Source of the DNA: Lathyrus oleraceus
Taxonomy: Eukaryota; Streptophyta; Magnoliopsida; Fabales; Fabaceae
NCBI RefSeq assembly: GCF_024323335.1
Contig: NC_066580.1
Coordinates: 253,990,977-254,054,976 of the forward strand
Reading direction: 5' to 3'
Length of the DNA: 64,000 nt
Shown piece by piece: positions 10,309 to 62,799 of the stretch; the stretch's first letter is position 1; every line of letters begins with the position of its first letter. The notes beneath the pieces were generated by a model that did no database searches, was not told the origin of the DNA, and worked only from the letters and a program-made list of their open reading frames with translations. Both the position numbers and the translations under genes were made by a program.

Positions 10309-10315
10309 TATATAA
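10309..10315 (+). promoter_or_regulatory. LTR 1 TATA box
   Basis: TATATAA within GGGAGTATATAACCC, the only strong TATA box I noticed in this part of the LTR. It is identical in LTR 2 and LTR 3. It probably marks the U3/R boundary, with transcription starting about 30 bp downstream, which would leave a very long R/U5. Confidence 0.6.
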
Positions 10316-26349: not shown

Positions 26350-26362
26350 AAATAGGGGCATC
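26350..26362 (+). promoter_or_regulatory. polypurine tract, unit 1
   Basis: AAATAGGGGCATC immediately before LTR 2. It is the same sequence as before LTR 3 and close to the PPT of element H. Confidence 0.7.
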
Positions 26363-27490: not shown

Positions 27491-27497
27491 TATATAA
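27491..27497 (+). promoter_or_regulatory. LTR 2 TATA box
   Basis: TATATAA in GGGAGTATATAACCC, same context as in LTR 1. Confidence 0.6.
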
Positions 27498-30485
27498 CCC
27501 TAAGCATAACTGTTTTTCTGCTAACAACACTTCCTTTTTCAGATCTAGAAATTTTTCACACTTTTTTTCTCTCAAAATTTTCTTCCAATTTCTTCATATT
27601 CAATTCATTTCCTTGTTTAATCCTTGTTGTTGAGTTGATCTTGAGCAGGATCATCCATAGAATCAGTGGAATTCGTGCAAGGTGGAAGCATTCATGAAGC
27701 TTGATGCATCTATGGCAAATCCAAAATTCTGGTGAATTATGTGCAATTGAGCTTTGATCTTCCTTCCATTCATCTTCACAAGCATTGTAGAGAAGATTTT
27801 GAGCACTGCAAGGTCTGAACAACATCAAATCCAGTTCTGCTTCTACAAGAGGTTACAAATCGCATCTCCTAATCTTGCTTTTCATTGCCATAATATGATA
27901 GATCTTGTGATGCTGAGTAGTTTAGGCTTTGAATCAACGAATTTCCTGCAAAATTGAGTGAGAAATGATTGATTGAAGTTTGATGCATGATTATTTATCT
28001 CTTCGATCCGTGCTTGTTGTTATGATTCATGTTGAAATGATTATAGATTGTGAATGTATGATGCAAGACCTTTCCAATGATATGCGCCATGCTGATTTCT
28101 GTGCACTTTGGATTTTTCTGGAAATTTGAAGATGAAGATCTTGAAGATCTTCATCATGTTCATGAATGCTTGCGTTTTTCCTGCGAATTTAGTTACAACC
28201 TTCATGTGTTTACCTGCGAATTTTGATGCGTGTTCTTCATGATTTCCTGCAGATTTCGTATCCAGCCGTGCATGCATTAGCTAGGGTTTCACATGTATAG
28301 GTCCACGTATCCGCTTGCATGGCATTTTGGTGTGTCTTCATTCGTTTGACCGAGCACACGCGGGCTTTGACTGCCACATATGATTAATGAAACGACGCGT
28401 TTCATTGTTGGCGCCAGTCACATTCAAATTGTGACATGCTTCGATTCCTGGCCATGCTTCTTTTCAAAATTGCCATGCTATTATTTGTTTTCCCTCCATA
28501 TTCATGTACATGCTTCTCATACTTTTTTTTATTTTTTCTCCATCTTCCGAAATTCATATTAAATTGAAAATAGCTCCAAAAAATGTGTGGTTTTTTGCTT
28601 GATGTCACATTTTCTGTCTAGGATTTTATGAGCATTTTTCCATAAATTGTGCATGGCTAGAAATTAATTTTGCCTAGGGTTTGTGAACATGTATGCCTTT
28701 TTGTACCTTGATTTCCATATCTTTTGTGAAATGATGAGTTTTAATCTAATGCCTATGAGATTTGACATGTTGAAACTAGACTCTTGGCTGGACATTTTGG
28801 TGTTGAGTTTGCATTTTTACCACTTGTGGTTTCTGTTTTATGATCATGTGAATGTAGGTGTGACAATTTGTGTCACACCTTTGCTTGTCCAACTTGATTA
28901 ATTGATTTTCCATGCCAAATGAATTCGAATTGATGTGATTTTTTGTATGATGTTCCTTGTGGATGTTGTGAATGCTCATGATTTGTTATGGAATTTGTGG
29001 ATTGATTTCTGATTTGATTGAGATTTTTCATTCTGGATGTTCATTTGTGCACTTTTGAATGGTCTTGAATTTCATTGGTTTGTGAAATGCTTGTGCTTTA
29101 TCCTATGGATGTGAAATTTTACATATTAATTCTAGACATGTTGAAGATTTTTTTGGCTTTGATTTGAGGTTTTTACCATGTTTCATTTCTGTTTTAGGTT
29201 TGTCCTAAGTTGATGTGTCATTTGGTGTCATATTTGAGCTTGTTTTGATTGCCTTGCCTTATACAATTTGATTACCATGCTTAATCATGTCCAGTTGCCC
29301 TAATTTTTGGTGTGTTGATCATGTTGTATGCTGTGTTCATCCATGAATTTTCTCAAGATTATTTGAATCATTTTTGAATTAATGTGCATTTGTTCATTCT
29401 GATGTCACAATGTGGTTACAACTTGCATACCTTGCCATGTTTAGCTTGTGAAATACTTTTGGTATATGATATTGATGTGAGACCTTTTGGATTGTTTCAA
29501 GATTTGTTTGAAGTTGATTCATGTTAATTTTCAGCTTCTGTTTTAAATTTTTTCTCCATCTTTGACCCTAGGCTTTGACCTAGTGGTTTGCCTCTCATGT
29601 TTGAAGCTTTGTTTCAGGTTACACATTCAAGTTACACAATTGATGATGCCTCATCTTGAGAGCATTTGATATTTGCTTTTGACTAACATTGTGTGTTTTG
29701 TAGGGTTGTTAACTCATTTGAGTTGGACTTGTGGCTTATGCCTTTGCTTATTGGGTTTGACTGTTGATATTGATGTTGTTTGATTGTCTGAGTTGTATAC
29801 TGATTTGTTTGATGTTTCCACAGGTACATTAGTTGCTTAAGTTCATTTTGAACTTGCTTTTGCTTGGTTGCTTAACCACTTAGGTATAACCTCTCTTCTT
29901 CATGTAGTCTGGAAGACCTGGCCTGTTATGTGGTCAGGCACCTGTCTGAAGTCCTCCTTAAGAGGCAATGCTTGTGTTTGTTTACTTTTTGTGCCAAGCA
30001 GGAAAAGTCCTTTGATAAGGCAATTGGTAGATAAAAGAGATGTGTAGTCCATCTCCTACTATTCAGTGTGTCATTCCTTTGCTCACATAACATGTTGATG
30101 CATTGTGGATATTAACCCAATATCTATAGAGTCATTCACTTGTGGAGAGAGTTCCAACTTTCTGAACTCCCACACCTTCTATTATTCAAAGATCTCCCAG
30201 GCCAGGGATAGAAGCTATGAGGCACACCGTTCATCTCCATTTCATCTGCTTCACCTTAACTCTCAATGTTAAGGTTAAGAGCACAACGTACCCCATTCCA
30301 GTTGACTGTACAGTCTAACCTTGTTTGAGCCTAATTGCTTGTATATAGTGTGTGCTAATTGACTTGTTTGTCTGTTTGCTTGATTCATCTGTGCATATTT
30401 GCTTGAGTTTGTCTTTGTGCATTTATCATCATCATTTGTTATCATTTCATAAACCTTGCTTTATAGCATTTTTTGCTTTGTCCAT

Positions 30486-30735
30486 GGAGGAGACAAGCAT
30501 AAGTCCATTACTTGGCAGTTGTTCCAATGATATGGTGTGAGACTAGTATAAGTCCAGTGATTGGCATCCGGTATCATTTATTTTGTTTAGGAGATTGGTG
30601 TAAATCCATTTATTGGTATCCGGTATCCATGTTTGTTTGTGAGATTGGTATAAGTCCATTGATTGGCATCCGATATCATGGTTTTATTTTAGGAGATTGG
30701 TATAATTCCAGTGATTGGAATCCGGTATCCATTTG
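30486..30735 (+). repeat. ~50-bp tandem repeat inside LTR 2
   Basis: Same array as in LTR 1, with a few private substitutions (ATCCGATATC at one copy). Confidence 0.8.
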
Positions 30736-31761
30736 TTTTGCTTATTTGTTATTGCTCATTGTTGCCTATTCCAGAGGAAACACTTGAATCATCTTCCATA
30801 TGATTTCAAGAGGTGAACATCTGAGAAGTTTTACACTCCCTCACCCTCCATCCTTTTGTTTCTTTAAACTTCCATTTGCATGTTAATCCAAAACCTGAAA
30901 ACCATTGTGCAAACATTTTCATGTCTTTTCAAATTAGAAACCTAGGCCTTAAGCCTTTGACTTTTCAAACTTCATTTTCTTAACACTTCTTTGAATTAAA
31001 TTCTAATCATACTTTGACCATCTTTTGTGAATAAATCCTAATTGGTTAATCCAACTCATTCAATGATTTTGTGGCTTTGTCCATTCTTGATAAGTTTTCA
31101 TACATTAGCCATAGGTTTGATTTATCCTAGTTGGTTGATGTTAATCTCACCTTTTTGTCCTTAGTGATTGAATTGTAAGACTTCCTTGCTTATTATAGGG
31201 TTAACCCCTCACTAGCAAGTTGAAGCTTTTCTCACGTGGTGGACTCGTTGTTTGTATAAGGTTGAGTTTTCTCCCGTGGATAACGAAAGACCTTAGGGAT
31301 TTTGTTTTAAAATGAACCCACTCATATTTTGGAAATCTTTTAGCCGAACTACGGCGTTTTGATCCTTACCTTTCATGGAAGGTACGTAGGCAACGGGTTC
31401 ATCCGTTCAAACACAAAAACAATAAAAATTGTATATTCTTTTCTCATCCCTTCATTCATGTTTGCACAATAAACATTTTCATAACAAATAACATTTCATT
31501 ACAACAAGTGTGAAAAGGGCTCCCTAGGAGTACCTAGAACGTTTTGGCTGCCTAACACCTTCCCATTGCATAATTTACCCCTTACCCAGATTCTCTGATC
31601 TTTTTATTAGTTTTCTATGTGTAAAACTTCTTAGGCTTTTGTTCGCTTTTTAGCCATTCCTTTGGATAAATAAAAGTGCGGTGGCGACTCGATTCTTTGT
31701 ATGCTTTGCTTTTGATTTAATCAATAAATCATAAAGTGACGAATACACCGCTACAGAAAAG

Positions 31762-39976: not shown

Positions 39977-39989
39977 AAATAGGGGCATC
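39977..39989 (+). promoter_or_regulatory. polypurine tract, unit 2
   Basis: AAATAGGGGCATC directly before LTR 3, identical to unit 1. Confidence 0.7.
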
Positions 39990-41116
39990 TGTAAGACCCC
40001 AATTTTGTCCCTAAGATCCCTCATGGCATCATATCATATCATATCATTGCCTCAAGGATCATTGTGCACCTTGCTCCCTTCCCTGTGGGTGGGTTATATT
40101 TTGAGTGTGATTCTTGATCACCAAGCATGTTTTGCATTTGTATATCATTGCTTTTCATTTGTTTACTAACCAAAAGTACAAAAATATGTCATCTAACCCT
40201 TGTCTTACAGATGAGCAATCAACAGTCAAAGCAGTCAAAGGCAGTCATTGAGCTATAGGTGGTGGCCATTCTTGAGAATTTGGACCCCACAATCATTATC
40301 AAGAGTTCATATGAGCTATGATATCATTTTGAAGCAAAACCCCAAGTGGTAGAGGCCTGAATGTCATCTGAGCATAGCCAGGTCAACTGAAGGCCTAGAA
40401 AGTCAACTGCCAAGTCAACTGTGGATTTAGAGGTGGGAAGTGACTAGAAATACTTCATTCATGTTCAAACAAGTCTCATTTGACATTTCAAATATCAACA
40501 ATGAAGAATTTGAGGTCAGGTTAAAACTTTCCAAAAATAGAAAGTGACCTATAATTCAAAATTGCCAAAAATGGAAAGGTTTTAACCTAGCTTCAACTTC
40601 AAATTACATCATCAAGAAAGCTTCAAATGAAATTTTTTTGAACATGAAAGTTGTAGATCTTTCTTTCCCATTTCCAAAAAGTCCAAGATCATCCATTTCT
40701 CATGTGTGGTTAAGGAGTTATGGATCAATCATGGCCAAGGGTGACATGAACTTCAAACATGCATAACTTTCAAACCAAAAGGCCAAATGAAGTGGTTCTT
40801 TTTTGTACATTCATGTCTTGACATATACTATCCAGATCATGCATCACATGCCATGCATTCTCATCATATGATCATTTGAAATTTCACCTAAATTTTGGAG
40901 GGAAAATTATAATTTAAAATTGGTGCATTGTTTTCACATTCCAACACTTGCATTAGCTTCCAAACAACATTTCAAGTGAATTCCAAGGCATTTTCATGCA
41001 CTGTTCCATTCATTTTCATGCATAGAGGTGCATTTGCTAATTTGCATTTACACCTTCATTTTACTAATCCATTTGCCTTTTGCTTAAGTGTGATTAAGGA
41101 CATGATTAAGAGGGAG

Positions 41117-41123
41117 TATATAA
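41117..41123 (+). promoter_or_regulatory. LTR 3 TATA box
   Basis: TATATAA in GGGAGTATATAACCC, conserved with LTRs 1 and 2. Confidence 0.6.
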
Positions 41124-44104
41124 CCCTAAGCATAACTGTTTTTCTGCTAACAACACTTCATTTTTCAGATCTAGAAATTTTTCACACTTTTTTTTCTCTC
41201 AAAATTTTCTTCCAATTTCTTCATATTCAATTCATTTCCTTGTTTAATCCTTGTTGTTGAGTTGATCTTGAGCAGGATCATCCATAGAATCAGTGGAATT
41301 CGTGCAAGGTGGAAGCATTCATGAAGCTTGATGCATCTATGGCAAATCCAAAATTCTGGTGAATTATGTGCAATTGAGCTTTGATCTTCCTTCCATTCAT
41401 CTTCACAAGCATTGTAGAGAAGATTTTGAGCACTGCAAGGTCTGAACAACATCAAATCCAGTTCTGCTTCTACAAGAGGTTACAAATCGCATCTCCTAAT
41501 CTTGCTTTTCATTGCCATAATATGATAGATCTTGTGATGCTGAGTAGTTTAGGCTTTGAATCAACGAATTTCGTGCAAAATTGAGTGAGAAATGATTGAT
41601 TGAAGTTTGATGCATGATTATTTATCTCTTCGATCTGTGCTTGTTGTTATGATTCATGTTGAAATGATTATAGATTGTGAATGTATGATGCAAGACCTTT
41701 CCAATGATATGCGCCATGCTGATTTCTGTGCACTTTGGATTTTTCTGGAAATTTGAAGATGAAGATCTTCATCATGTTCATGAATGCCTGCGTTTTTCCT
41801 GCGAATTTAGTTACAACCTTCATGTGCTTACCTGCGAATTTTGATGCGTGTTCTTCATGATTTCCTGCGGATTTCGTATCCAGCCGTGCATGCATTAGCT
41901 AGGGTTTCACATGTATAGGTCCACGTATCCGCTTGCATGGCATTTTGGTGTGTTTTCATTCGTTTGACCGAGCACACGCGGGCTTTGACTGCCACATATG
42001 ATTAATGAAACGACGCGTTTCATTGTTGGCGCCAGTCACATTCAAATTGTGACATGCTTCGATTCCTGGCCATGCTTCTTTTCAAAATTGCCATGCTATT
42101 ATTTGTTTTCCCTCCATATTCATGTACATGCTTCTCATACTTTTTTTTATTTTTTCTCCATCTTCCGAAATTCATATTAAATTGAAAATAGCTCCAAAAA
42201 ATGTGTGGTTTTTTGCTTGATGTCACATTTTCTGTCTAGGATTTTATGAGCATTTTTCCATAAATTGTGCATGGCTAGAAATTAATTTTGCCTAGGGTTT
42301 GTGAACATGTATGCCTTTTTGTACCTTGATTGCCATATCTTTTGTGAAATGATGAGTTTTAATCCAATGCCTATGAGATTTGACATGTTGAAACTAGACT
42401 CTTGGCTGGACATTTTGGTGTTGAGTTTGCATTTTTACCACTTGTGGTTTCTGTTTTATGATCATGTGAATGTAGGTGTCACAATTTGTGTCACACCTTT
42501 GCTTGTCCAACTTGATTAATTGATTTTCCATGCCAAATGAATTCGAATTGATGTGATTTTTTGTATGATGTTCCTTATGGATGTTGTGAATGCTCATGAT
42601 TTGTTATGGAAATTTTGGATTGATTTCTGATTTGATTGAGATTTTTCATTCTGGATGTTCATTTGTGCACTTTTGAATGGTCTTGAATTTCATTGGTTTG
42701 TGAAATGCTTGTGCTTTATCCTATGGATGTGAAATTTTACATATTAATTCTAAACATGTTGAAGATTGTTTTGGCTTTGATTTGAGGTTTTTACCATGTT
42801 TCATTTCTGTTTTAGGTTTGTGCTAAGTTGATGTGTCATTTGGTGTCATATTTGAGCTTGTTTTGATTGCCTTGCCTTATACAATTTGATTACCATGCTT
42901 AATCATGTCAAGTTGCCCTAATTTTTGGTGTGTTGATCATGTTGTATGCTCTGTTCATCCATGAATTTTCTCAAGATTATTTGAATCATTTTTGAATTAA
43001 TGTGCATTTGTTCATTCTGATGTCACAATGTGGTTACAACTTGCATACCTTGCCATGTTTAGCTTGTGAAATACTTTTGGTATATGATATTGATGTGAGA
43101 CCTTTTGGATTGTTTCAAGATTTGTTTGAAGTTGATTCATGTTAATTTTCAGCTTCTGTTTTAAATTTTTTCTCCATCTTTGACCCTAGGCTTTGACCTA
43201 GTGGTTTGCCTCTCATGTTTGAAGCTTTGTTTCAGGTTACACATTCAAGTTACACAATTGATGATGCCTCATCTTGAGAGCATTTGATATTTGCTTTTGA
43301 CTAACATTGTGTGTTTTGTAGGGTTGTTAACTCATTTGAGTTGGACTTGTGGCTTATGCCTTTGCTTATTGGGTTTGACTGTTGATATTGATGTTGTTTG
43401 ATTGTCTGAGTTGTATACTGATTTGTTTGATGTTTCCACAGGTACATTAGTTGCTTAAGTTCATTTTGAACTTGCTTTTGCTTGGTTGCTTAACCACTTA
43501 GGTATAACCTCTCTTCTTCATGTAGTCTGGAAAACCTGGCCTGTTATGTGGTCAGGCACCTGTCTGAAGTCCTCCTTAAGAGGCAATGCTTGTGTTTGTT
43601 TACTTTTTGTGCCAAGCAGGAAAAGTCCTTTGATAAGGCAATTGGTAGATAAAAGAGATGTGTAGTCCATCTCCTACTATTCAGTGTGTCATTCCTTTGC
43701 TCACATAACATGTTGATGCATTGTGGATATTAACCCAATATCTATAGAGTCATTCACTTGTGGAGAGAGTTCCAACTTTCTGAACTCCCACACCTTCTAT
43801 TATTCAAAGATCTCCCAGGCCAGGGATAGAAGCTATGAGGCACACCCCTCATCTCCATTTCATCTGCTTCACCTTAACTCTCAATGTTAAGGTTAAGAGC
43901 ACAACGTACCCCATTCCAGTTGACTGTAAAGTCTAACCTTGTTTGAGCCTAATTGCTTGTATATAGTGTGTGCTAATTGACTTGTTTGTCTGTTTGCTTG
44001 ATTCATCTGTGCATATTTGCTTGAGTTTGTCTTTGTGCATTTATCATCATCATTTGTATATCATTTCATAAACCTTGCTTTATAGCATTTTTTGCTTTGT
44101 CCAT

Positions 44105-44353
44105 GGAGGAGACAAGCATAAGTCCATTACTTGGCAGTTGTTCCAATGATATGGTGTGAGACTAGTATAAGTCCAGTGATTGGCATCCGGTATCATTTAT
44201 TTTGTTTAGGAGATTGGTGTAAATCCATTGATTGGTATCCGGTATCCATGTTTGTTTGTGAGATTGGTATAAGTCCATTGTTTGGCATCCGGTATCATGG
44301 TTTTATTTTAGGAGATTGGTATAAGTCCAGTGATTGGCATCCGGTATCCATTT
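44105..44353 (+). repeat. ~50-bp tandem repeat inside LTR 3
   Basis: Third copy of the array seen at 13307 and 30486; one unit reads TTTGGCATCC where LTR 1 has ATTGGCATCC. Confidence 0.8.
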
Positions 44354-45374
44354 GTTTTGCTTATTTGTTATTGCTCATTGTTGCCTATTCCAGAGGAAAC
44401 ACTTGAATCATCTTCCATATGATTTCAAGAGGTGAACATCTGAGAAGTTTTACACTCCCTCACCCTCCATCCTTTTGTTTCTTTAAACTTCCATTTGCAT
44501 GTTAATCCAAAACCTGAAAACCATTGTGCAAGCATTTTCATGTCTTTTCAAATTAGAAACCTAGGCCTTAAGCCTTTGACTTTTCAAACTTCATTTTCTT
44601 AACACTTCTTTGAATTAAATTCTAATCATACTTTGACCATCTTTTGTGAATAAATCCTAATTGGTTAATCCAACTCATTCAATGATTTTGTGGCTTTGTC
44701 CATTCTTGATAAGTTTTCATACATTAGCCATAGGTTTGATTTATCCTAGTTGGTTGATGTTAATCTCACCTTTTTGTCCTTAGTGATTGAATTGTAAGAC
44801 TTCCTTGCTTATTATAGGGTTAACCCCTCACTAGCAAGTTGAAGCTTTTCTCACGTGGTGGACTCGTTGTTTGTATAAGGTTGAGTTTTCTCCCGTGGAT
44901 AACGAAAGACCTTAGGGCTTTTGTTTTAAAATGAACCCACTCATATTTTGGAAATCTTTTAGCCGAACTACGGCGTTTTGATCCTTACCTTTCATGGAAG
45001 GTACGTAGGCAACAGGTTCATCCGTTCAAACACAAAAACAATAAAAATTGTATATTCTTTTCTCATCCCTTCATTCATGTTTGCACAATAAACATTTTCA
45101 TAACAATTAACATTTCATTACAACAAGTGTGAAAAGGGCTCCCTGGGAGTACCTAGGACGTTTTGGGTGCCTAACACCTTCCCATTGCGTAATTTACCCC
45201 TTACCCAGATTCTCTGATCTTTTCATTAGTTTTCTATGTGTAAAACTTCTTAGGCTTTTGTTCGCTTTTTAGCCATTCCTTTGGATAAATAAAAGTGCGG
45301 TGGCGACTCGATTCTTTGTATGCTTTGCTTTTGATTTAATCAATAAATCATAAAGTGATGAATACACCGCTACA

Positions 45375-45379
45375 GTTTC
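45375..45379. repeat. target site duplication, right copy (GTTTC)
   Basis: Matches 9176-9180 exactly and closes the three-LTR insertion. Confidence 0.9.
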
Positions 45380-47723: not shown

Positions 47724-48630
47724 TGTAAGACCCCAATTTTGACCCTAAGATTCCTCATGTAATTTCATCATATGCATTAGCGTTGGGATCAGACCTTGGC
47801 ATCCTCCTTACCCCTCTTTCATTGGGTTTGTTTTGGGAGAGATCATCAAGCACCATTTAATTGTATCATACTTGTATATTATCATTTTACTAACCAAAAT
47901 ACCAAAAATATGTCTTTGCATTTGCCTAACCCTTTTGTAGGTAGGGCATGATCACATTGATTTATCAAGTTCATATCTAGGGGTTTCAGGCCCTCATGAC
48001 AAAGAGCATAACCATGAATTTGATCCAAGAATGGTTATAAGCACCAAATATGAGTTCCAATGATCTCTACATGTTATATTGATCAGGTTTTCTTCAAGAG
48101 TTTGGAGGTGATTTGCCTTGGAAACCCTAGTTTGTCTGGGTATCTTGAGTAACTTCTCCAACAAGCCATCTCACCAATTGATCAAATTTATCAAGGGAAA
48201 CTTCAAAATTCATCATCTTATGCATATTTGATCTACCATGATCCAATAAAGTCAAGAGAATTGAAGGTTAGCAAGTTGGTTGATGGTGGTTGCCCAAATG
48301 AATTCATCTAATCAAAACTGCGTCTCCCTAGACCCCGTCTCCTACAATTTTCACCATATGAAAATGATTTCAAGAGAAACGTTACTCTAAATGACACTCA
48401 AAACAACTTTCATGTTGATACCTAGACCTAGTTTTGCTTGGAAAATCATTTTCTATGTTGAAACATTATAGGTCATTTTGTCTAAACCCTAATTTGAAAG
48501 TCAACTTCCCAAGACCATAACTTGCTCAATTTTTATGAGATGAAATATTTCCAAGTTTCACAATCCAATTAAATATGTATACTTCAACTTTTATGTTTGG
48601 AGTGAGAGCTAATTCAACTTTTATGAGCAT

Positions 48631-49990
48631 TGAAGGAGAATTGCCATCCAAGGCGCAGCGGAATATAAAAATTTCTCCTTTAATGATCCTTACGAATGAG
48701 CATGATTAGTGATAGAATCGTTACCTCTTGTGGAGATTCAAAACTTTGGTGCAGATCTCTGACAATGATCAACCTTTGATACAGATCCACGGGGCGATCA
48801 CGAACGTTGAACGATGACAACGTCTCTACTCAGTCCACACGAACGGATTCCTTCAATCGCAGTGCTAGCTGTTTGTGAGTGAAGGCTTTGAGTGAGAGAG
48901 AGAGAGATACGAAATTCCAACTCTTCAGTTGTGTTGTCTGGAGTCTGAATGCTTCTACCCAAGGGGTTCTATTTATAGAACCACTTGTGTGGGCTTCAAG
49001 CCAAAAAGCCCACTTAAGTGCATTTTGGCCCATATCTCAGAATATGCCAAAATCACTTAAGTATTTGGTACTTTACCATATTTCGTATTCTTCTTAAGTA
49101 CACCGTACCTTACGATGTTCCTTAATTATTCTATCTCTCATCAATCCGTCCTTTGTGTGTGACCCTATAGGTTTTCGCGGCGTTGGCAATTATATTAAAT
49201 CATGCATTTAACATAATAAACAGTGAGCGGTATCTAGCAACACATCACTGCTACCCAAGTCACGAAAATGTCATGTGATCTGACAAAACCTCCTGTGATA
49301 ATAATTATGTGTATAATTACCCCTTTGCCCTTATGTCTATATTGAACACAAGGTACAGACCGTGTCACCCTTGTCCAGTTCAATATTGGGCCCATAGACA
49401 TTTATCCTGTTACGCAGGATTGGCAAATTCCATCTAGGACACTCATGTCCCTCAGCATGCTTCGTGGAGTACCCATCAACTGTCTTTATGGTTATCCAGT
49501 TACGGACAACGTTGGATCAGCAATAAAACACTCGACTCTACATCTAGGATCCATAGTGGTTTCAGGTCGAAGAGTGGTATACACTATTATCACCATGAGA
49601 ATAACTTATGACACTTTGCATAACTTTCTATATAGTATTCTCATAGCGGGTCAATCCGGTATAAATATTACTCCTAATATTCATACCTATGTTTAAGACT
49701 TGATAACTCTTTATCCATGATCCATGAGATGTGATCATCAATCTACAAACATAATAGTCTTAATGCTTTAATGTTATCCCACTTCACATTAAAGCTCGAC
49801 TACGGATACTTTAAGAATAGTGTCCTTATGTTTAATGTGTTCTCATGATTAAGTCACACTTAATACATTAAACAGACTATCTATTCCAGGGACTTTATTA
49901 ATCAACCATAATAAAGAAAATGCCTTTTATTATTAATAAATAATTCGATACAAGTACCAAAAGTATTGGCCTCTAGGGCTTACACCAACA
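48631..49990 (-). repeat. copia 3' LTR
   Basis: 1360 bp. The minus-strand start is TGTTGGTGTAAGCCCTAG; the end is ATTCTCCTTCA. The minus-strand TATA box TATAAATA lies at 48970-48977 inside an inverted repeat (48965-48982, GGTTCTATTTATAGAACC, 8-bp arms). A short AG microsatellite stands at 48893-48907. Confidence 0.93.
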
Positions 49991-50004
49991 ATCTCCCACT
50001 AGCA
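49991..50004 (-). promoter_or_regulatory. copia polypurine tract
   Basis: The minus strand reads TGCTAGTGGGAGAT directly before the 3' LTR start TGTTGG. Confidence 0.7.
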
Positions 50005-50460
50005 CTAGAGCCAATCAGACATACCCCGTATGCCCATTGATCTAGTATGGCCATCATGCTTCTGCTGCGCAAGAGGCTTTCTCAGTGGGTTAGCAACATT
50101 GTCAAGTGTAGGTACTTTACATATTTTCACACAACGCCTAAGTATGTGTTTGGATCGTTGGTGAGATCTAGGCTCCTTAGCTTGTGCGATAACACCATTG
50201 TTATCATAATAGAGACCAATGGGATCCACAATGCTAGGGACTATGCCAAGTTTATTGATCCAAACAGCTTCCTTTGCTGCACTCAAGGCAGCAATATACT
50301 CGGCCTTAGTTGTAGAATCAGCAACTGCATCTTGCGTTGAACTTTTCAAGCTCACAATGCCACCATTTAAGCAAAACACATAACCAGATTGGATTCATAT
50401 TAAAGCGTCTCAGCACTTTGTCCATGTACTCTGACTTAGGCCAAGCATTTCATAATCTAT
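50005..50460 (-). pseudogene. copia RNase H remnant
   Basis: Minus strand, at the 3' end of pol. Blocks: SWKSSTQDAVADSTTKAEYI-type motif seen as SLKSSTQDAVADSTTKAEYI, AAKEAVWINK, and the LYYDNNGVIAQAKEP block, followed by HQRSKHI. The active-site pattern of copia RNase H is visible, but the N-terminal part is missing: the RT end (50460-50400, MDKVLRRFNMNP-like in another frame) joins directly to GYVFCLNGG. Inactive. Confidence 0.8.
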
Positions 50461-50723: not shown

Positions 50724-51483
50724 GAGTAATACATCACCTTGATCAGATATCCATATATCTCAGGTAGGTGACGTATCCTGCCTGACCTACGCTGGTCTTG
50801 TTCTACTTGAGCAGGTTGCTCTTACACAACTACTTGTGTTTCCTGCTCTAATTCCTCCATAGGTGTATCGATGCTTTGTGATTCTTGAATTTCTTCAAGT
50901 TCTACTTTCCTCCCACTGATTCCTTTGGAAATAAGATCCCTTTCTAGGAAAACTCAAGTTCGAGCGACAAACACTTTGCCCTTAGGAGGATTGTAGAAAT
51001 AATATCCTCTTATTTCTTTAGGATACCCCACAAATAAGCGTTTGTCAGATTTGGGCTCAAGCTTAGTTGAAATTTGTCATTTCACATAAACTTCGCAACC
51101 CCAAATCTTCATGTAAGACATATGTGGTCTCTTACCACTCCATATCTCATATGGTGTCTTTTCAACCTTTTGGATGGAACACGGTTAAGTGTGTAAGCTA
51201 ATGTCAATGGTGTATGTCCTCAAAAGGAGTTTGGAAGATTGGTGTGACTCATCATGGATCGGACCATGTCCAACAGGGTTCGATTTCTTCTCTCAGGTAC
51301 ACCCTTCCATTGGGATGTTCCAGGAGGAGTAAGTTGGGATAGGATCCCACACTCTTTCAGATGGTCATCAAACTCTAGGATTAAATACTCATCACTTCGA
51401 TCTGATCGAAGAGTTTTAATATTCTTACCTAGTTGTATTAATGTTATTAATAGGCATTTCAAGATCAAGGACATATAGTCCAT
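50724..51483 (-). pseudogene. copia integrase remnant and linker to RT
   Basis: Minus strand 51483-51220 includes IKTLRSDRSDEYL (second catalytic Asp region) and GVPERRNRTLLDMVRSMM (catalytic Glu block). The zinc finger and the first Asp are missing, because gag-pro sequence joins straight into the middle of the core near 51430. Downstream (51219-50760) the frame-shifted remainder of integrase and the acidic Gln-rich linker to RT can be followed. Confidence 0.78.
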
Positions 51484-52690
51484 TGTTCATTTGTGCAGTA
51501 GCATAGAATATATCATTCAAATAAATTGAGCAACAATTGTTCTTTATTATAAATGAAAAACCAAACTTGTCCAAACAAGCAATGGAAATAATATTCCTGC
51601 TAATTGCAGGTACATAATAACAGTTCTCTAACTGAATTATTAAACCACTAGGTAAAGTCAATACAAAAGTTCCTACGGCTAAAGCAGCAACCTTTGCTCC
51701 ATAGCCAACTCGTAGGTCGACTTCACCTTTTGCCAAATCTCTACTTCTTTTCAGCCCATGCACATTTGTATAAATGTGAGAACCGCATCCAGTATCTAAT
51801 ACCCATAATGCAGAAATAGATAAATTAATAACAAAAATACCTGAAATTGAAGTCTCTACTCCATTCTTCTTATCTTCCAGGTACTTTGGGCAGTTCCTTT
51901 TCCAGTGTCCGGTCTTACCGCAATGGAAGCAGGTGCCTTCTTTTGCTATACCTCCACTAGGCTTCAAAGCAGCAGTGGGTCTGGGATTGGCAACTTCCTT
52001 GCCCTTCCCCTTATCACTCTGCTTAGTGGGCCTTTTGTTCTGTCTCTTTCCATTTCCGATCATCAGAATGGACTTCCCTTTTGACTTCAGATTCTGCTCG
52101 GCAGTTCTTAACATGGCGAGCAGTTCAGGAAGAGATTTGTCCATATCAATCATATTGAAATTTAGGACAAATTGACTGAAACTATCTGGCAACGATTGCA
52201 AGATCAAATCAGTTGCAAGTTCCTTTTCGAGGGGAAAACCCAATCTCTCAAGGTTTTCCACATACCCAATCATCTTGAGTACATGGGGACCTACAGGGGC
52301 TCCCTCAGCTAACTTGCTTTGAAAAAGGGCTTTTGAAACTTCAAACCTCTCATGCCTTGCTTGCTCTTGATAGAGCAACTTCAGGTGTTCGATCATATCG
52401 AATGCTGACATGTTCTCATGTTGCTTTTGCAATTCTGAGTTCATGGTAGCCAGCATGAGACAAGCAGTTTCATTGGCATCATCGACATGCTTCTTATAAG
52501 CATCTCTTTCTGCCTTAGGTGCAGAACTAGGAGGTTCCTCTTCAGGAACAGGTGTCTCCAAGACATACAGCTTTTTATCATGTTTGAGGATAATCCTCAG
52601 GTTTCGGTGCCAATCCAGAAAAATTGTCCCAGACAATTTTTCCTTATCAAGGAATGATCGCAGGATGTTGTTAGAGGTGTTTGTTGTCAT
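51425..52690 (-). CDS. gag: copia Gag-protease, truncated
   Basis: 421 codons from ATG 52690 on the minus strand. Gag capsid region about residues 1-200 (FLDWHRNLRIILKHDKKLYVL, then a region like retrotransposon gag PF14223). CCHC zinc knuckle CFHCGKTGHWKRNC near residue 257. Copia-type aspartic protease with WVLDTGCGSHI near residue 296. The start of the pre-integrase segment (NNGLYVLDLEMP) follows before the frame runs into the integrase deletion. Gag coats element RNA into particles; protease matures it. It is the longest intact frame of this element and could still be translated. Confidence 0.88.
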   Translation of the reverse strand: MTTNTSNNILRSFLDKEKLSGTIFLDWHRNLRIILKHDKKLYVLETPVPEEEPPSSAPKAERDAYKKHVDDANETACLMLATMNSELQKQHENMSAFDMIEHLKLLYQEQARHERFEVSKALFQSKLAEGAPVGPHVLKMIGYVENLERLGFPLEKELATDLILQSLPDSFSQFVLNFNMIDMDKSLPELLAMLRTAEQNLKSKGKSILMIGNGKRQNKRPTKQSDKGKGKEVANPRPTAALKPSGGIAKEGTCFHCGKTGHWKRNCPKYLEDKKNGVETSISGIFVINLSISALWVLDTGCGSHIYTNVHGLKRSRDLAKGEVDLRVGYGAKVAALAVGTFVLTLPSGLIIQLENCYYVPAISRNIISIACLDKFGFSFIIKNNCCSIYLNDIFYATAQMNNGLYVLDLEMPINNINTTR

Positions 52691-53019
52691 GGTGATCTAC
52701 ATAAGGATTAATGAAAATGTAAGTATCATTGACATATTCAATTAGGCCTTTAATTAAACATGCTCCCACTATTTTACTCAAAACAAATGACCCTCATCAT
52801 CTGATTCGAAAAATCCCGTTGGAAGATTTTCTAGTGGGTCGAGATCCATATTTCACTTCGTTCTAAGTCCGCGTAGGCGGATTACACAAAACTAGGTTAT
52901 TTTAGGTAGGAACTCCTTCCAATTGTATCTCATACAACTCTCGAAAATTCAGTTGGGTGAATAACTCCTTATTCTAATCCATCATATGGATTATTCCCAA
53001 CTCTTGCTTCTAAACATAT

Positions 53020-53345
53020 ATAATAAAATTATAATTAAGTTTGAACCATTGTCTTAGCAGTTGGATATTACATTTATCCCATCGCACCCTACTAATATAG
53101 AACATGCACCTCGCGTAGGCGAAACCTACATATCCTATACCAATCTTGATGAGTGCTAAAACTTGGAAAGCAAACACATATAATATTATTATAATTTGTT
53201 TAGTTAAGTTTGACCCATTGTTTTAACAGTTGGATATTACAATTATCCCATCGCACCTTACTAATATATAGATCATGCACCTCGCGTAGGCGAAACCTAC
53301 ATTATCCATTACTAGTCTTGATGAGTGTTAAAACTTGGAAAGCAT
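53020..53345 (-). repeat. ~175-bp tandem duplication in the copia leader
   Basis: Two imperfect copies, each with CAGTTGGATATTACA, ATTATCCCATCGCACC, CATGCACCTCGCGTAGGCG and AAAACTTGGAAAGC (the last at about 53157 and 53329). They differ by about 10 % including small gaps, so the duplication is much older than this insertion. Confidence 0.75.
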
Positions 53346-53880
53346 AAAACTTAATATTTAGTTTTGAGGGAATTGCAATTTTACTGATCTCACCGGCTTG
53401 TTTATCATATAAACCGTCTCTCACATGCATCAACATACATTCACATGCATCAACATACATACAAACAAAATGAAACAGTTATGGCCCCTAGCGCAATTGT
53501 TCTCCCAAGCCAATGAGAGAACCTAAGCTAACCTACAACGATCTAAGCTTCTCCAAGCAAGATCTTCAAGGTTGTCCTCCTTTGGCACTGACTTCTTTGC
53601 TTTCTTCATATCATTACATTACATGAAAGAAACTCGTTTTACATACGAGGGAGTGAGATGAGAAAAGAAGTTACATTTTGGAGATTAAGAGAGAGGCACG
53701 ACACGCAGGTTGTATTTTAAAATCCAAAATCAAACAAAGGAAAACTAAGGCCATAACCGATCACCACAAGGCAATAATAAACACTTTATTATTATTATAA
53801 TTAATTCCTTTAATTAATTAAAATCAAATTAAATTTCGACGACCGATCACACTACGCAGAGTTAGCCGGGGGTCCGCAGC

Positions 53881-53903
53881 GCCCCTTGCGGGGTCTAAGG
53901 GGC
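53881..53903. other. GC-rich hairpin
   Basis: GCCCCTT (53881-53887), 9-nt loop, AAGGGGC (53897-53903), inside a GC-rich island (53867-53914) in otherwise AT-rich DNA. The wider island can also pair in other ways (GCGGGG with CCCCGC). Confidence 0.55.
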
Positions 53904-54020
53904 AGCGCCCCGCTCGAAAATTTTAATGAACAATTCATTTAAAAATTGACGTCGTTTTTCGTATCAACACTTGATACTTCAAAGCACTTTTTCTAGCCGA
54001 ACCGGTGAATTTTTTCTTGC

Positions 54021-54346
54021 GTTAACCGGTTAACCATATGCGTTAACCGGTTAACACTGTTTGAAAACATTTAAAAAAAACTCTTTTCTGCCTTGCGTTA
54101 ACCGGTTAACCAAATGCGTTAACCGGTTAACACTGTTTGAAAATATTTAGAAAACTCTTTTCTGCCTTGCGTTAACCGGTTAACCAAATGCGTTAACCGG
54201 TTAACACTGTTTGAAAATCTCAAAATTTTATTTCGCATTCCGTTAACCGGTTAACCAAATGCGTTAACCGGTTAACACTGTTCCAAAAATTAAAAAATTA
54301 TTTCGTATTACGTTAACCGGTTAACCATACGCGTTAACCGGTTAAC
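54021..54346. repeat. array of ten 14-bp palindromes in five pairs
   Basis: GTTAACCGGTTAAC occurs, perfect, at 54021, 54042, 54097, 54118, 54171, 54192, 54242, 54263, 54312 and 54333. Members of each pair start exactly 21 bp apart (7-bp spacer CAAATGC, CATATGC or CATACGC). Pairs are 70-76 bp apart, and the DNA between pairs varies in sequence and length. CACTGTT follows the second member of every pair. It lies in the leader between the PBS and gag of the copia element. Confidence 0.95.
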
Positions 54347-54756
54347 ACTGTTCGGAAAAGTGTTTAGGACGCACAACTCTTGTGAAATCAAACCCCAATC
54401 GCATAACTCTCTAACAACACAACCCTTGTGTCGTCACTAACCCTGATGCACCAATTTCAGACCGTCAAACACGTCTCGATTGTTAATTCAGTATGATTGA
54501 TCAACACGTCATTGCTTCACCATACTAATGTCGGATCAAGAAGCAAACGACCATTGATCGCTCAAAGGAAAACAATCATCGAGGTTTTTTGAATGAATGA
54601 AACAAGAACACTATATCATATATAATGTATTTTGCATCAGGGTTACATATATCACATATATGTAACTTGATCGATCTCAATTTAACCTTTGATTTATTCT
54701 GTTTTAATCATATTATTACAGAACAAAAACAGATATCAGATTCATGGTTTCGTAAG

Positions 54757-54770
54757 TGGCTCTGATACCA
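54757..54770 (-). promoter_or_regulatory. copia primer-binding site, initiator tRNA-Met
   Basis: The minus strand reads TGGTATCAGAGCCA one base after the 5' LTR end; TGGTATCAGAGC is the standard plant initiator tRNA-Met PBS of copia elements. Confidence 0.9.
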
Positions 54771-54771
54771 C

Positions 54772-56131
54772 TGAAGGAGAATTGCCATCCAAGGCGCAGC
54801 GGAATATAAAAATTTCTCCTTTAATGATCCTTACGAATGAGCATGATCAGTGATAGAATCGTTACCTCTTGTGGAGATTCAAAACTTTGGTGCAGATCTC
54901 TGACAATGATCAACCTTTGATACAGATCCACGGGGCGATCACGAACGTTGAACGATGACAACGTCTCTACTCAGTCCACACGAACGGATTCCTTCAATCG
55001 CAGTGCTAGCTGTTTGTGAGTGAAGGCTTTGAGTGAGAGAGAGAGAGATACGAAATTCCAACTCTTCAGTTGTGTTGTCTGGAGTCTGAATGCTTCTACC
55101 CAAGGGGTTCTATTTATAGAACCACTTGTGTGGGCTTCAAGCCAAAAAGCCCACTTAAGTGCATTTTGGCCCATATCTCAGAATATGCCAAAATCACTTA
55201 AGTATTTGGTACTTTACCATATTTCGTATTCTTCTTAAGTACACCGTACCTTACGATGTTCCTTAATTATTCTATCTCTCATCAATCCGTCCTTTGTGTG
55301 TGACCCTATAGGTTTTCGCGGCGTTGGCAATTATATTAAATCATGCATTTAACATAATAAACAGTGAGTGGTATCTAGCAACACATCACTGCTACCCAAG
55401 TCACGAAAATGTCATGTGATCTGACAAAACCTCCTGTGATAATAATTATGTGTATAATTACCCCTTTGCCCTTATGTCTATATTGAACACAAGGTACAGA
55501 CCGTGTCACCCTTGTCCAGTTCAATATTGGGCCCATAGACATTTATCCTGTTACGCAGGATTGGCAAATTCCATCTAGGACACTCATGTCCCTCAGCATG
55601 CTTCGTGGAGTACCCATCAACTGTCTTTATGGTTATCCAATTACGGACAACGTTGGATCAGCAATAAAGCACTCGACTCTACATCTAGGATCCATAGTGG
55701 TTTCAGGTCGAAGAGTGGTATACACTATTATCACCATGAGAATAACTTATGACACTTTGCATAACTTTCTATATAGTATTCTCATAGCGGGTCAATCCGG
55801 TATAAATATTACTCCTAATATTCATACCTATGTTTAAGACTTGATAACTCTTTATCCATGATCCATGAGATGTGATCATCAATCTACAAACATAATAGTC
55901 TTAATGCTTTAATGTTATCCCACTTCACATTAAAGCTCGACTACGGATACTTTAAGAATAGTGTCCTTATGTTTAATGTGTTCTCATGATTAAGTCACAC
56001 TTAATACATTAAACAGACTATCTATTCCAGGGACTTTATTAATCAACCATAATAAAGAAAATGCCTTTTATTATTAATAAATAATTCGATACAAGTACCA
56101 AAAGTATTGGCCTCTAGGGCTTACACCAACA
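54772..56131 (-). repeat. copia 5' LTR
   Basis: 1360 bp, the same length as the other LTR with about four substitutions. The TATA box is at 55111-55118 (minus strand), 6141 bp from its twin, exactly the LTR offset. Flanked on the right by AGCAT. Confidence 0.93.
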
Positions 56132-56747
56132 AGCATGTGATATGAGGATACATTATAGGTCATTTTTTACCTATACCATTGGACAAGTGATTTTTCCAAA
56201 CTTCAAAAATGCATAACTCTATCATTATAAATCCAAATGACAAGAAATTGGTGACCATTGTGAAGGTCTTTGAAAGAGATACAACTTTTATGAAGACACG
56301 TTTCTCATTTGAAGCTCACATAAAAAGTTAAGCAAGGTTGAATATTGAGATATATGGCTTGACACTTAGAAAACTTTTCAACATGTTGAAATTCCCAAAC
56401 TTCCACCTCAAAATTCACCATGATCCAAGCTTCAAATGGAAAAGTGTTCAACATCAAACTTGTTCCGCTTGATCCAAGCTTTCCAAATAACTCAAGTTCA
56501 TGCATTTTGGATGAAGTTTGCTAGGTCTGCGCATGGCTTTAACAGAGCTGTAGCATTGGAGGAAATCAAATGTCCAAAACTCCATTTCACTTTGCCTTGC
56601 CAATCAAGCATCATTTGAACTTCAGTACAGTTGCAATTGGATCAAAATGGATTGCTTCATGGGCTTGTACACGCCCATGTAAGCTTGTGCATCACATTGC
56701 CAAATTTTTAGCAAATTTTCAAGTGTGCAATTATCAATCCCAAATGC

Positions 56748-57830: not shown

Positions 57831-59537
57831 TGATGCGTGCTTTTCGCAAGTATAGGAACGCGTCAGAGTAATATAAAAGATTGTCGAATCCACAGAGACC
57901 AAGTGTCAAGATATCGTTATCTGTTGTTATGGTGTTTATCAAAGGCAGTCAAAATAGGTGTTTTTCGTAGTGTGCAATGAAAAGTAAAGTATTTAAATAG
58001 ATTTAATTAATAAAGACAGGGTCGAATGTAATTCACGTAATCAATTGATGATCCAAGTACTTGCTAATAGAACTACTTATGGGCAATGTTTCCTACTTTG
58101 AAAAGAACTAATTTAATAGGAACTGTCGCTTTCGCGTATTCAGAACCGAGTTGTACTCCCGTATCAAACCCTCTTATTGTCACTTATAAAAAGGCGCGCA
58201 TTGCGTTAGAGTAGTAAACCTATTTTTAAGAAATATAGTATCTTGACTAAGTTGAAAAGTATTATAACCTGGACTTCTTAACCAAAAGAGGTTCTTACGA
58301 ACCAGACTCTAAACTTATAAACGCGTCCGAAAATAGTTTTAAAATCTCTTTTCTTCTTAATGTTAAAAACTCCTAATGAACTAAACAAAGCGCTTTCGCT
58401 GTTTTTGAAATAGTTAAAAACAATTAAGTTTATAAAGACGTTGGACGGCTTTCGATCTTACCCAACGGAATTGAAGTGCGGGAAAACTTAATTTGAAAGT
58501 TAAAATAGCCCTTAAGTGTTTCTACGAACAATTGTACGGATTATCGGTTCAATTACGATCCTTACATTCTAACCTTTTAGATTTAGTTAGACATGGTAAA
58601 ATAAAAGTGCATTAATTTAAATAAAAGTAGTGCGAGTGCGGAAAGTAAATAAAAGTAGTGCGAGTGCGGAAAGTAAATAATTTAAAGCGAGTGCGAGGAA
58701 ATAAATAAAGTAAAAGCGAGTGCGGGAAATAAATAAAGTAAAAGCGAGTGCGGGAAATAAATAAAGTAAAAGCGAGTGCGAGGAAATAAATAAAGTAAAA
58801 GCGAGTGCGGAAAATAAATAAAGTAAAAGCGAGTGCGAGGAAATAAATAAAGTAAAAGCGAGTGCGGGAAATAAATAAAGTAAAGACAAGAAATAAAAAC
58901 CTGCTCCAATTGGAGGGCTAAGTAAATTGCAATGCGGAAAAGAAAATGGCGGCAGGATTAACTTCCTTCCAAAGTGCTCCAAACTCGATTACAGACTCTA
59001 TCACAGACTTGATGACACAATTGTGGTAACACTCCAATGCGAAGCGATTACCACTATAAAATACTGAATATATGCCTAAGTGAAACAAAGTTGCTTCTGA
59101 GTTTGCCTCTGCTCTAAGTTTGGATCATTGTAAAACTGAATTCACGTTTCTATTTATAAGCAAATAAAAAAAGTGGAATTGACTTGGATGCCCTTCAACT
59201 TGAAAATAGAGGAAACTGTTTCCTTCTTGTAGCGCCCGCCACAAGCACAAAGTGGGGCGCCTTAGTGGATGTAGTGGGGAAACGTGGGAGTTGAGGAAGT
59301 TGGACTTGGACACGTCATGGCTTGGTTTGTGGCGCCCGCCATGGGGTAGGCCATAAGCACAAAATGCTGAATTTTATTGTTTTTAGCTCTTTTTCACTCC
59401 TTTTCTCGATCGGGGTTCCGATTAAAGTAAAAACCTGAAAACAAAGGAAAACACAGTAATAACACAACAAAATGATAATAAACAGCTAGAATGCATGTGA
59501 AATCGGAGTCGAAAATACGTAAATTTTAGTGTGATCA
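57831..59537 (-). repeat. 3' LTR of the Athila-like element (~1.7 kb)
   Basis: The minus strand starts TGATCACACTAAAATTTACG (59537) after the PPT and ends CACGCATCA (57831). It contains the 29-bp array (58617-58890) and two GGCGGGCGC motifs. No gene inside; the long hydrophobic minus-strand frames at 58617-58982 are just the array translated. Confidence 0.7.
58617..58890. repeat. ~29-bp tandem repeat in the Athila-like LTR
   Basis: Nine copies of a unit like AAATAAATAAAGTAAAAGCG followed by AGTGCGnGG. The central copies are nearly identical and the outer ones are degraded, as expected of a recently expanding minisatellite. Confidence 0.88.
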
Positions 59538-60659: not shown

Positions 60660-62117
60660 CTATTGCTGACCACTAGTGCCCTCGCCATCTTGAGGTGGAC
60701 GACGGGATCGGGTACGACGACGGTCTCTCTGATCCATCCTCGCCTGTAGGGCATCCTGAGTGGTCCTCACCTCTCGAAGGTTACCTAGAATGGAACCTTG
60801 AGTAGCTTCGATGAGTGCCATGTGTCGCTGGTTGTAGTGTTGTTGACGGGCCTGTGTGTCTGTGATCACTTGCAGAGACTATAGAACAGTGTCGTAGGAC
60901 CTGTATGTCCTCCGCTGCGATTCTTGCATGAAGTTCATATTATCCGTCATTTGTTGTTGGATGGTAGAGAGTAGGTCATCTCGCCTTTGCTCTCTAGCCA
61001 TGTGGTCTCGCCACATCTCCTCTGTAATATAGAAGCCAGGAGTGGTACCTGCAGAAGAAGAAGATGGTGCGGTGTGTGGTGGTGAAGGATGATGGGGGGA
61101 CACATGGGGTACGGGAGATCTCTCTCTCCGGTCATATTCATCATCAGTGTCTGGTCCCGCCTCATCAGGAATGTTAGGAGGAAGAGGACCCAAAACAAGT
61201 GGAGCATCTAAATAGTAGGTCCAATTCCTCTCATCATGTATATCGGTACGTCTAGTGCAAGGTAGAATAATAGATGGGATGGCTACACCATGAACCGTAA
61301 GTCTATAACCTCTTTCTCTCCTTGAACGGCACAATTTCATGTCTCTCAGAAATTTTAAGTTAATTGTGCGAGGAGGTAAGGGGTCTAGGGTAGCCATCTC
61401 ATTGTTCAGGTTGAGTGTCCGAGCAATAGACGTAATCAGTCCACCAAAAGAAATCGGTCCCGCCTTATTCAGAGTTAAAATCATATGGGCGAGCATAAAC
61501 GGAACCGAATTAATTCTCCTATTTGTGAGGCTTCCTTGCAAATATAGAAGCTCTCTAGCGTTAACCTTATTTGGATTCTCCCGGCCAAAAATAGTGCATG
61601 CCAACAGATATCTAAAAACTCTGATGGTCGGGTTATGGATAGTTGAGGCAAGAACTCCTTCAAAAGAGTTTATGGAAGTGTTGGATAAACGCTCCCAGAA
61701 GGAAAATACCTCAACAGACCATTCGGAATCCAAAAGGACCTCACAAATAGCACCTTCCCCATGAGGGATCCCTAACAAGCTGGCTAGTTCGTCGGTACTG
61801 AATTGGTATTCAACAGCAAACATTCTAAATTTGACAGTACCAACTGTGCTAGCAGTGTTAGGGTTGACAATATAAATTAAGGAACTTAAAAATTCGATTG
61901 TCAACCACTCATAGGTGGGTTCTTTGTTGATAAAGAAATTATGCAAACCTAAGTTGTCTAATAAATGGAAAATGTTATGGTAGATGCCTAAAGTATAGAG
62001 ACAATTTTCGTCAACATACCTTGTGGGAAGAATTTCCCGATTTTGCAACCGTTCAATGATTTTTCTTTGTCTCTCCCCCGGTTTCCCTCCTCGAAGGATG
62101 AATCCGTTGAACTCCAT
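60660..62117 (-). pseudogene. Athila-type ORF, copy a (one in-frame stop)
   Basis: 412 codons from ATG 62117 to TAG at 60881-60879. The same frame then continues for ~73 codons to 60660, so one nonsense codon splits a ~485-residue protein. The N-terminal half (YEWLTIEFLSSL, KFRMFAVEYQFSTDELASLLGIP, TIHNPTIRVFRYLLACTIF) is the conserved domain of Athila ORF / plant transposon proteins. The middle is Pro/Ser-rich (PHHPSPPHTAPSSSS); the C-terminus is Gln/Arg-rich and helical. Position before the 3' LTR matches the extra ORF of Athila elements, sometimes called env-like; no membrane segment is evident. Function unknown. Confidence 0.75.
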
Positions 62118-62799
62118 TTGAATGCTCTTGAAAAGTGGATGAAGAAGATGAAGTGGTTGGTGAAAAGGTTGGATTTTTACAAAATCCGGCGGATGAAATC
62201 GAAAATGGAAAGTGGGTTAATGATTTGTGTGGTATGATGGTTAGGAAAGTATGAGCTTTTTGTGGGTTCAAGGGCTTTTTTCCAAGGTGAAAAAATAGGT
62301 TTTGGAGGTTGTAAGTTGCAAAAATTGGTGAAGAAAAGTGGTCTGCCCCGACCATTTACAGACGCTGTGACGGGCGCCACAGGTCCTATGGCGGGCGCCA
62401 CAAGGCAAAATCTGGCTGGGCCAGATTTTGGTCCTTTGGTTTGGGCTTCGCTTGTCTTTTGGCTTTGAGGGGTCTGGATAGCATTTGTCTTGAGATTCTC
62501 CTAGTTTCTTTGACTTGCATAATTTTATAAAAGTAAAAACGAAAATAAAAAGTGAAACTGAAACAAAAACAAAAACAGAAATTAAAAATAAATAAACAAA
62601 TAACTGAAAAATTAAAATGCAAATAAAATAAATATAAAACATATATGGATAAAAATAGAAATACTAATGTATAGTAGTGGTTTATATAATATTCTTAATG
62701 CGATAATATAAAATAGATAATGCAAATACGATAAATATATAAAAGAGAAATAGAATGAAATGGTGAGATCAAGTATTAGGGGTGTCGTCTGCCTGAGTG
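62118..62799. other. A-rich spacer between the two Athila-type ORFs
   Basis: No supported gene. On the plus strand it holds two GCGGGCGCCACA-type motifs (62364-62402) and a long A-rich tract (62525-62760) like the shorter one after copy a (60480-60580). No LTR boundary is visible, so the two ORFs are not obviously in separate elements. Confidence 0.5.

Follow-up and report, generated by a model that had tools for sequence, protein, structure and literature searches.

The element at the locus

The stretch analysed, hereafter the window, comprises 64,000 nucleotides of the pea (Lathyrus oleraceus) genome (C2:253990977-254054976), and the genome-wide searches described below were carried out on the 3.795-Gb assembly of the same species. 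On the minus strand of the window lies a young, pol-defective retrotransposon that, judged from its sequence, is a Ty1/copia element: this copy has a copia-type gag (Retrotran_gag_2, 2.4e-16), and a relative whose LTR is 95% identical to that of the window element (L018) gives an RVT_2 match of 2.1e-74. The element carries an LTR pair, a primer binding site and a polypurine tract (both read by eye), and a 5-bp target site duplication. An array of palindromes is located in its untranslated leader of about 2.1 kb, downstream of the 5' LTR, in agreement with the position that an earlier note on this DNA had given it. The features are as follows.

54772..56131, minus strand: 5' LTR (TGTTGG...CTTCA), exact ends read from the sequence
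48631..49990, minus strand: 3' LTR
48626..48630 (3' side; partner at 56132-56136): target site duplication, ATGCT in minus-strand reading
55113..55118, minus strand: TATA-like box CTATAAATAG in the 5' LTR, putative promoter element
54759..54770, minus strand: primer binding site TGGTATCAGAGC, by eye
52691..54771, minus strand: untranslated leader (about 2081 nt; 55 ATGs precede gag)
51425..52690, minus strand: gag to protease-side open reading frame (Retrotran_gag_2, zf-CCHC, Pol_BBD; Pfam)
50005..50394, minus strand: open frame reading as the RNase H end of pol, by eye
54016..54352, minus strand: tandem array of units of about 74 bp, 4.6 copies (TRF)
54021..54055: pair 1, PAL CATATGC PAL (plus-strand reading)
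54097..54131: pair 2, PAL CAAATGC PAL (plus-strand reading)
54171..54205: pair 3, PAL CAAATGC PAL (plus-strand reading)
54242..54276: pair 4, PAL CAAATGC PAL (plus-strand reading)
54312..54346: pair 5, PAL CATACGC PAL (plus-strand reading)

The two LTRs, compared by BLAST (54769-56132 against 48628-49991), were found to be 99.6% identical over 1364 bp, with five differences. Most of the integrase and reverse transcriptase is missing or broken in the window copy, and the frame read as the RNase H end gave no match in Pfam. We take the primer binding site to be of the tRNA-iMet type and, on features of gag and RNase H, the element to lie outside the Sirevirus group. Given the location of the TATA-like box, the array would fall within the transcribed leader. 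The same leader contains a second tandem duplication (53012-53358; about 160-170 bp, 83.5%) with GGTTTCGCCTACGCGAGGTGCATG in the element sense and, amid otherwise AT-rich sequence, a GC-rich stretch (53866-53925) in which GCAGCGCCCC occurs twice.

The palindrome array

The repeated motif GTTAACCGGTTAAC (PAL) is a perfect 14-letter palindrome with ten exact copies in the window, starting at 54021, 54042, 54097, 54118, 54171, 54192, 54242, 54263, 54312, and 54333, and forming five pairs with a within-pair offset of 21 bp. All ten are exact where the earlier note had placed them, and the pair-to-pair steps on the plus strand (76, 74, 71, and 70 bp) came out at the same values. A scan of the window allowing up to two mismatches returned these ten sites and none besides, against a chance expectation of 0.15 in dinucleotide shuffles (100 shuffles, each with 2 at most). 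The leader holds the whole set, with no palindrome at this tolerance in either LTR or in the interval between pol and the 3' LTR. In the element sense, about 425 nt separate the end of the 5' LTR from the start of the array, and the five spacers read GCGTATG, GCATTTG (three times), and GCATATG.

The DNA between the pairs was said to have diverged, and it has: 13 of the 35 ungapped columns in the four inter-pair stretches are variable, compared with 0 of the 28 palindrome columns (Fisher P = 2.5e-4), and 2 of the 7 spacer columns vary. The constant 21-bp offset inside one element is not independent evidence, because tandem duplication of a single unit gives the same result. Since the units arise by duplication, the constancy of the offset therefore needed support from elsewhere—support that is supplied by the genome-wide counts.

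Genome-wide occurrence of the pair

The arrangement PAL-N7-PAL was found 56,985 times without mismatch in the pea genome and 70,604 times with up to two mismatches, while the reversed pattern has zero occurrences there. Perfect pairs with other spacers number 118 (55 with spacers of 0-6 and 63 with spacers of 8-27), that is, the spacer is 7 in 56,985 of the 57,103 perfect pairs with spacers of 0-27. The offset does not vary freely, as expected from the earlier claim that the spacing is under selection. Spacers of 8-38 gave 35,148 matches; with 63 of these at 8-27, the remainder must lie at 28-38, the usual gap between adjacent pairs. Among the 194 offset-21 pairs in the fetched loci (both-LTR copies included, L001-L008 left out), 15 distinct spacer sequences were counted after merging of the strands, and the spacer length is constant at 7 across families that differ in spacer sequence. 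Furthermore, three consecutive palindromes at 21-bp steps were observed at C1:3555235-3555290 and C1:4154882-4154937, suggesting that the unit is extendable in the same register.

Exceptions to this grammar were also observed. One locus (L040) has a one-base deletion in a palindrome, another (L046) has lost one palindrome, and a third (L055) has kept the first pair alone. Two stretches fetched because they were listed as exceptions show, respectively, two overlapping palindromes (L056) and, within a 208-bp direct repeat, perfect palindromes separated by 40 bp (L057, 1679-1940), the latter being a variant grammar. A number of the spacer variants come as couples separated by 6.3-6.6 kb, resembling the two LTRs of a single element, and an altered spacer in one unit would thus be no bar to transposition.

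Outside pea, a search of viral contigs for the pair pattern (spacers of 0-30) and for the gag gave no relative. Four contigs from prokaryote genomes have a paired 14-mer, with spacers of 17, 18, 17, and 2. In the two of these four contigs that were examined, the pair is located beside frames judged by eye to encode a LacI-type regulator and a sugar-binding protein (L001, 1991-2035) and near a MarR-like frame, also by eye (L003, 6704-6748). The bacterial pairs were taken to be unrelated; they are probably operators that happen to use the same dyad.

Other retrotransposon families carrying the pair

A survey of 17 stretches, fetched from the listed matches in the first 3.1 Mb of C1, showed that the paired motif is not peculiar to the window family and is found, among others, in unrelated retrotransposon families. 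The window family itself (family A; L017, L018, and L019) has the array in the leader. Family B is Ty3/gypsy (Del-like), with LTRs of about 2.0 kb that start with TGTAACACCC and are 99.3-99.95% identical in the pairs compared. In one copy (L023), an open frame encodes protease, then reverse transcriptase, RNase H, and integrase, as in Ty3/gypsy elements, and the gag-PR-RT-RH-INT order and the U3 end are both present in the family; there is no chromodomain among the 12 Pfam families of the domain analysis. The array of family B is located at about position 560 to 840 of the LTR, and similarity to the window element is confined to the array. Separate fragments resembling the window family lie beside the gypsy copy in L021 and L022. 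Both the gene order and the U3 attachment consensus at the start of the LTR are as in Del/Tekay Ty3/gypsy elements (PMC4029996), whereas the available portion of that article describes no palindromic, inverted, tandem, or repeated motif.

Family C (L009/L010) is a copia family that we take, from sequence features of its gag and RNase H, to be Sirevirus-like; two short pieces of it gave no Pfam match. Its LTR stretches are 98.2% identical between L009 and L010, and the RNase H end of the window element is 31% identical to that of family C. The array extends from about +320 to +430 of the LTR, and a TATA-like box follows its end at a distance of about 97 bp. The linker holds another pair (L009, 4318-4352), downstream of a frame read as RNase H. 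Four palindromes per LTR and two in the linker were seen, the element being partly covered and interrupted by insertions. Family D (L056 and L057) is unclassified, with a putative LTR start at TGTAATATCCC and array variants 0.5 to 1.05 kb further on. Relative to transcription, the array of family B runs opposite to that of family A, and units of either orientation occur in family C.

The occurrence of the same paired motif in unrelated families suggests that a common host DNA-binding protein is used. Alternatively, the sites could bind a protein encoded by a mobile element—for example, an anti-silencing factor like VANC of the Arabidopsis VANDAL elements—with the retrotransposons having borrowed the sites. 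Anti-silencing proteins that bind short motifs in element repeats provide a precedent, and the motif is indeed common to several element families. Nevertheless, in one gypsy copy (B3), a single sense frame, 1491 codons long, takes up the interval from one LTR to the other and leaves no room there for an accessory gene, and we regard such an origin of the protein as very improbable.

Conservation of sites and spacing

Conservation was examined both in units found through the motif and in a sample drawn blind to it. In 54 units from 16 arrays or single pairs, which were found via the motif and taken at offset 21 so that intact units are favoured, 5 mismatches occur in 1512 palindrome bases. The palindromes are nearly invariant in the 51 units from families A and B, and the only well-shared bases outside them are TGC before the unit, C....G in the spacer, ACTGTT after it, and a T at -10; the shared TGC, C....G, and ACTGTT bases point to common descent of the unit or to a wider binding site. 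In an alignment of six of the seven gypsy LTRs (B4b left out), none of the 84 ungapped palindrome columns varies, compared with an invariant share of 66.6% (0.666) among the 1702 others, and the longest invariant run in the 2-kb LTR of family B, 41 columns, is a pair.

The motif-blind sample covers the window family only. A 400-bp flank of the leader without the motif served as the query, and 40 of 2290 candidate places were scored, yielding 30 loci (including the window copy) whose query flank matches that of the window at an identity of at least 99%. Among these, 231 of 237 sites are perfect, five have one mismatch, and one has three, with four sites of four mismatches set aside as chance. 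The within-pair offset is 21 in 117 cases and 20 in one, a further value of 24 involving a set-aside site; the steps between pairs range from 48 to 57. In the 26 loci with eight sites each (L026, L032, L046, and L055, with a different site number, left out), variable columns amount to 6 of 112 in the palindromes, compared with 22 of 113 between pairs (P = 0.002) and 109 of 502 in the downstream leader (P = 1.4e-5). The spacers (3 of 28) do not differ significantly from the inter-pair DNA (P = 0.41), and the upstream query flank (7 of 300) is as low as the palindromes. Because many deletions in the downstream leader between copies make for a loose alignment (445 gapped columns), the count was repeated on the 13 of these loci in which the downstream leader aligns end to end (210 gapped columns); variable columns were then 2 of 112 in the palindromes, 3 of 28 in the spacers, 14 of 114 between pairs (P = 0.003), and 44 of 420 in the downstream leader (P = 0.002). 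Selection on the sites, as the earlier note had proposed, is thus supported by the aligned leaders of relatives. In L027-L054, numerous deletions that differ from copy to copy have removed parts of the leader between array and gag, in window-family copies that are otherwise 99% alike; the array is retained.

These comparisons bear on the possibility that the array has no present function, one unit having been duplicated and copied into several families, with the uniformity reflecting recent spread. Such a history would suit the youth of the elements, evident from the LTR identities in the window element and the compared gypsy pairs, and the TGC and ACTGTT flanks common to the units, which point to common descent. 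However, filler and spacer have diverged within units whose palindromes have not, homogenisation would have carried the filler along with the palindromes, and the spacer length is still 7 where spacer sequences differ between families; the motif-blind sample of the window family likewise goes against it. We therefore judge an array without present function to be unlikely.

How the array may act

We consider it somewhat probable (about 0.6) that the array is a cis-regulatory module—paired dimer sites on one face of the DNA, maintained by selection, exchanged across superfamilies, and bound by a host regulator that aids transcription. In each pair, the two sites, two helical turns apart, would allow two protein dimers to bind on the same face and probably to cooperate. 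A host DNA-binding protein recognizing TTAACCGGTTAA-like dyads would bind the array and raise, rather than repress, transcription of the element, putatively through leader sites in the window family and through LTR sites in other families. Recombination or template switching may have exchanged the module between the Ty1/copia and Ty3/gypsy elements of pea, and selection acting on elements that are active would keep the palindromes and the pair spacing while spacer and filler drift. A host regulator is favoured because of the dyads, the retention of the offset despite changing spacers, the mobile position of the array, and the small weight of the RNA fold discussed below. The location of the array in the window family, downstream of the presumed start site, is unusual for an enhancer and counts against this model. 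A literature search with fragments of the 14-mer yielded, among the papers listed, no plant factor site recognizable by title and no candidate protein; a MYB-like CNGTTR site or a GT-box are readings of the palindrome that we would assume as candidates.

The earlier note had allowed for either a host protein on the leader DNA or a paired RNA structure. Acting as RNA, the array could form 14-bp hairpins with 7-nt loops, or pair between RNAs through its palindromes, and serve in dimerisation, packaging, or ribosome shunting; the accessible part of PMC3735527 mentions signals for the first two of these roles in BARE. The leader array folds at -142.7 kcal/mol, compared with a mean of -74.3 kcal/mol for shuffles (z = -12.65). 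The individual pairs are able to fold into hairpins of -22 to -26 kcal/mol, and all five do so when pairing is limited to 60 nt. The leader RNA is thus far more stable than shuffled sequence, but this follows from the repeats: any repeated palindrome folds automatically, and folding was for that reason rejected as proof of an RNA function. Moreover, in the unconstrained fold, several palindromes prefer partners other than their pair mate. A hairpin requires complementary arms, not arms that are individually palindromic, whereas the dyad within each 14-mer suits a dimeric protein. In addition, the gypsy and Sirevirus-like families hold the motif in the LTR, the latter upstream of the TATA-like box and so outside the 5' leader, which favours protein–DNA binding over RNA structure. 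The shifts among LTR, linker, and leader, together with the two orientations, fit an enhancer-like DNA module and not a 5'-leader RNA signal. Of the two options, protein binding to DNA would accordingly be preferred, and a role as RNA appears improbable.

A different role for the same sequence would be that of a host silencing target, with hairpin transcripts or a repressor marking the elements for small RNAs and methylation. Every palindrome has a central CCGG, and the array is CpG-rich, with an observed/expected ratio of 2.15 compared with 0.68 in the LTR; the maize Sirevirus palindrome clusters are described, in the available text of PMC10760457 (citing Bousios 2016), as having a small-RNA excess. 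An element, however, gains nothing by keeping a silencing target, and conservation in active lineages would thus require some benefit as well. Stems of 14 bp are, in addition, short for Dicer-like processing. Overall, a silencing target seems rather unlikely.

Returning to a module bound by a host regulator, its broadest form would be that one dimeric host regulator drives several unrelated pea retrotransposon families through a portable PAL-N7-PAL unit. Ty1/copia and Ty3/gypsy elements would have exchanged this unit, with shifts in its location (LTR, linker, or leader) and orientation, and the approximately 57,000 perfect paired sites would be potential enhancers for the elements and for nearby genes. 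We offer this extension tentatively, at somewhat under even odds. If it is true, a single regulator could be connected to pea genes through tens of thousands of uniform sites. The identical site with fixed spacing in copia and gypsy elements of one genome provides a defined 35-bp bait for pulling down the binding protein, and the question of whether unrelated transposons share control elements becomes directly testable.

Relation to known systems

Palindromic repeated motifs (RMs) in the LTRs and linkers of Sireviruses have been described as Sirevirus-specific and absent from classic retrotransposons, with regulation by stress-related factors suggested, in the available text of Bousios et al. 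2010 (PMC2829016). The criteria given there for RMs are at least eight copies, a location in LTR and linker, and a CGG-CCG signature. As in the pea array, many near-identical palindromes are present per element. They occupy the upper half of the LTR, ahead of the TATA box, and also the linker, where they precede ENV (PMC2829016, available part); the palindromes of family C lie in the corresponding upper-half LTR and linker positions. The ten copies in the window element exceed the eight-copy minimum, whereas six were seen in the partly covered family C. Several differences are also evident. The copies in the window element are all in the leader, with none in LTR or linker. A Ty3/gypsy family of pea has the motif in its LTR, and the copia family that has it in the leader differs from Sireviruses in its gag. 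The pea core is CCGG rather than CGG-CCG, although the published Tnd-1 motif is likewise without the signature, and the accessible sections of PMC2829016 make no mention of strict 21-bp pairing. The palindromic repeat cluster of Sirevirus LTRs is known; the pea array departs from it in being strictly paired, in lying within a leader, and in occurring in more than one superfamily.

A maize palindrome, CACCGGACNNNGTCCGGTG, is abundant in structured regions of Copia elements and Helitrons and has been linked to small RNAs (PMC10760457, in the part available). As in pea, one palindrome occurs in two element classes, and it is viewed there as cis-regulatory and as a small-RNA source; unlike in pea, it is shared with Helitrons and not with Ty3/gypsy, the sequence and species are other ones, and the available part mentions no pairing.

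Two further leaders invite comparison. An enhancer reportedly resides in the untranslated leader of Drosophila copia. Association of MOF with this leader has been described (PMC2443393, as far as available). As in the window element, the leader is that of a Ty1/copia retrotransposon and follows the LTR promoter; it binds regulatory proteins, as the pea array would. It differs in belonging to an animal element, and paired palindromes of this kind are not mentioned in that portion. BARE of barley likewise has a Ty1/copia untranslated leader, whereas its signals are RNA and the accessible part of PMC3735527 mentions no comparable array. In the literature searched, which covers few subscription journals, the 14-mer GTTAACCGGTTAAC was unmatched, and none of the papers listed was seen to describe one motif shared by Ty1/copia and Ty3/gypsy elements.

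Other features of the window

Three 5.4-kb copies (9179-14577, 26361-31756, and 39988-45375) are 98.6-98.9% identical, with about 11.8 and 8.2 kb between them. They look like a large-LTR gypsy array with three LTRs, perhaps originating from LTR–LTR recombination, and by size we presume this array to be Ogre-like. A 28-bp minisatellite of 9 copies is present at 58632-58884, and an ATHILA ORF-1 family protein (Pfam PF03078) is encoded on the minus strand at 60879-62216.
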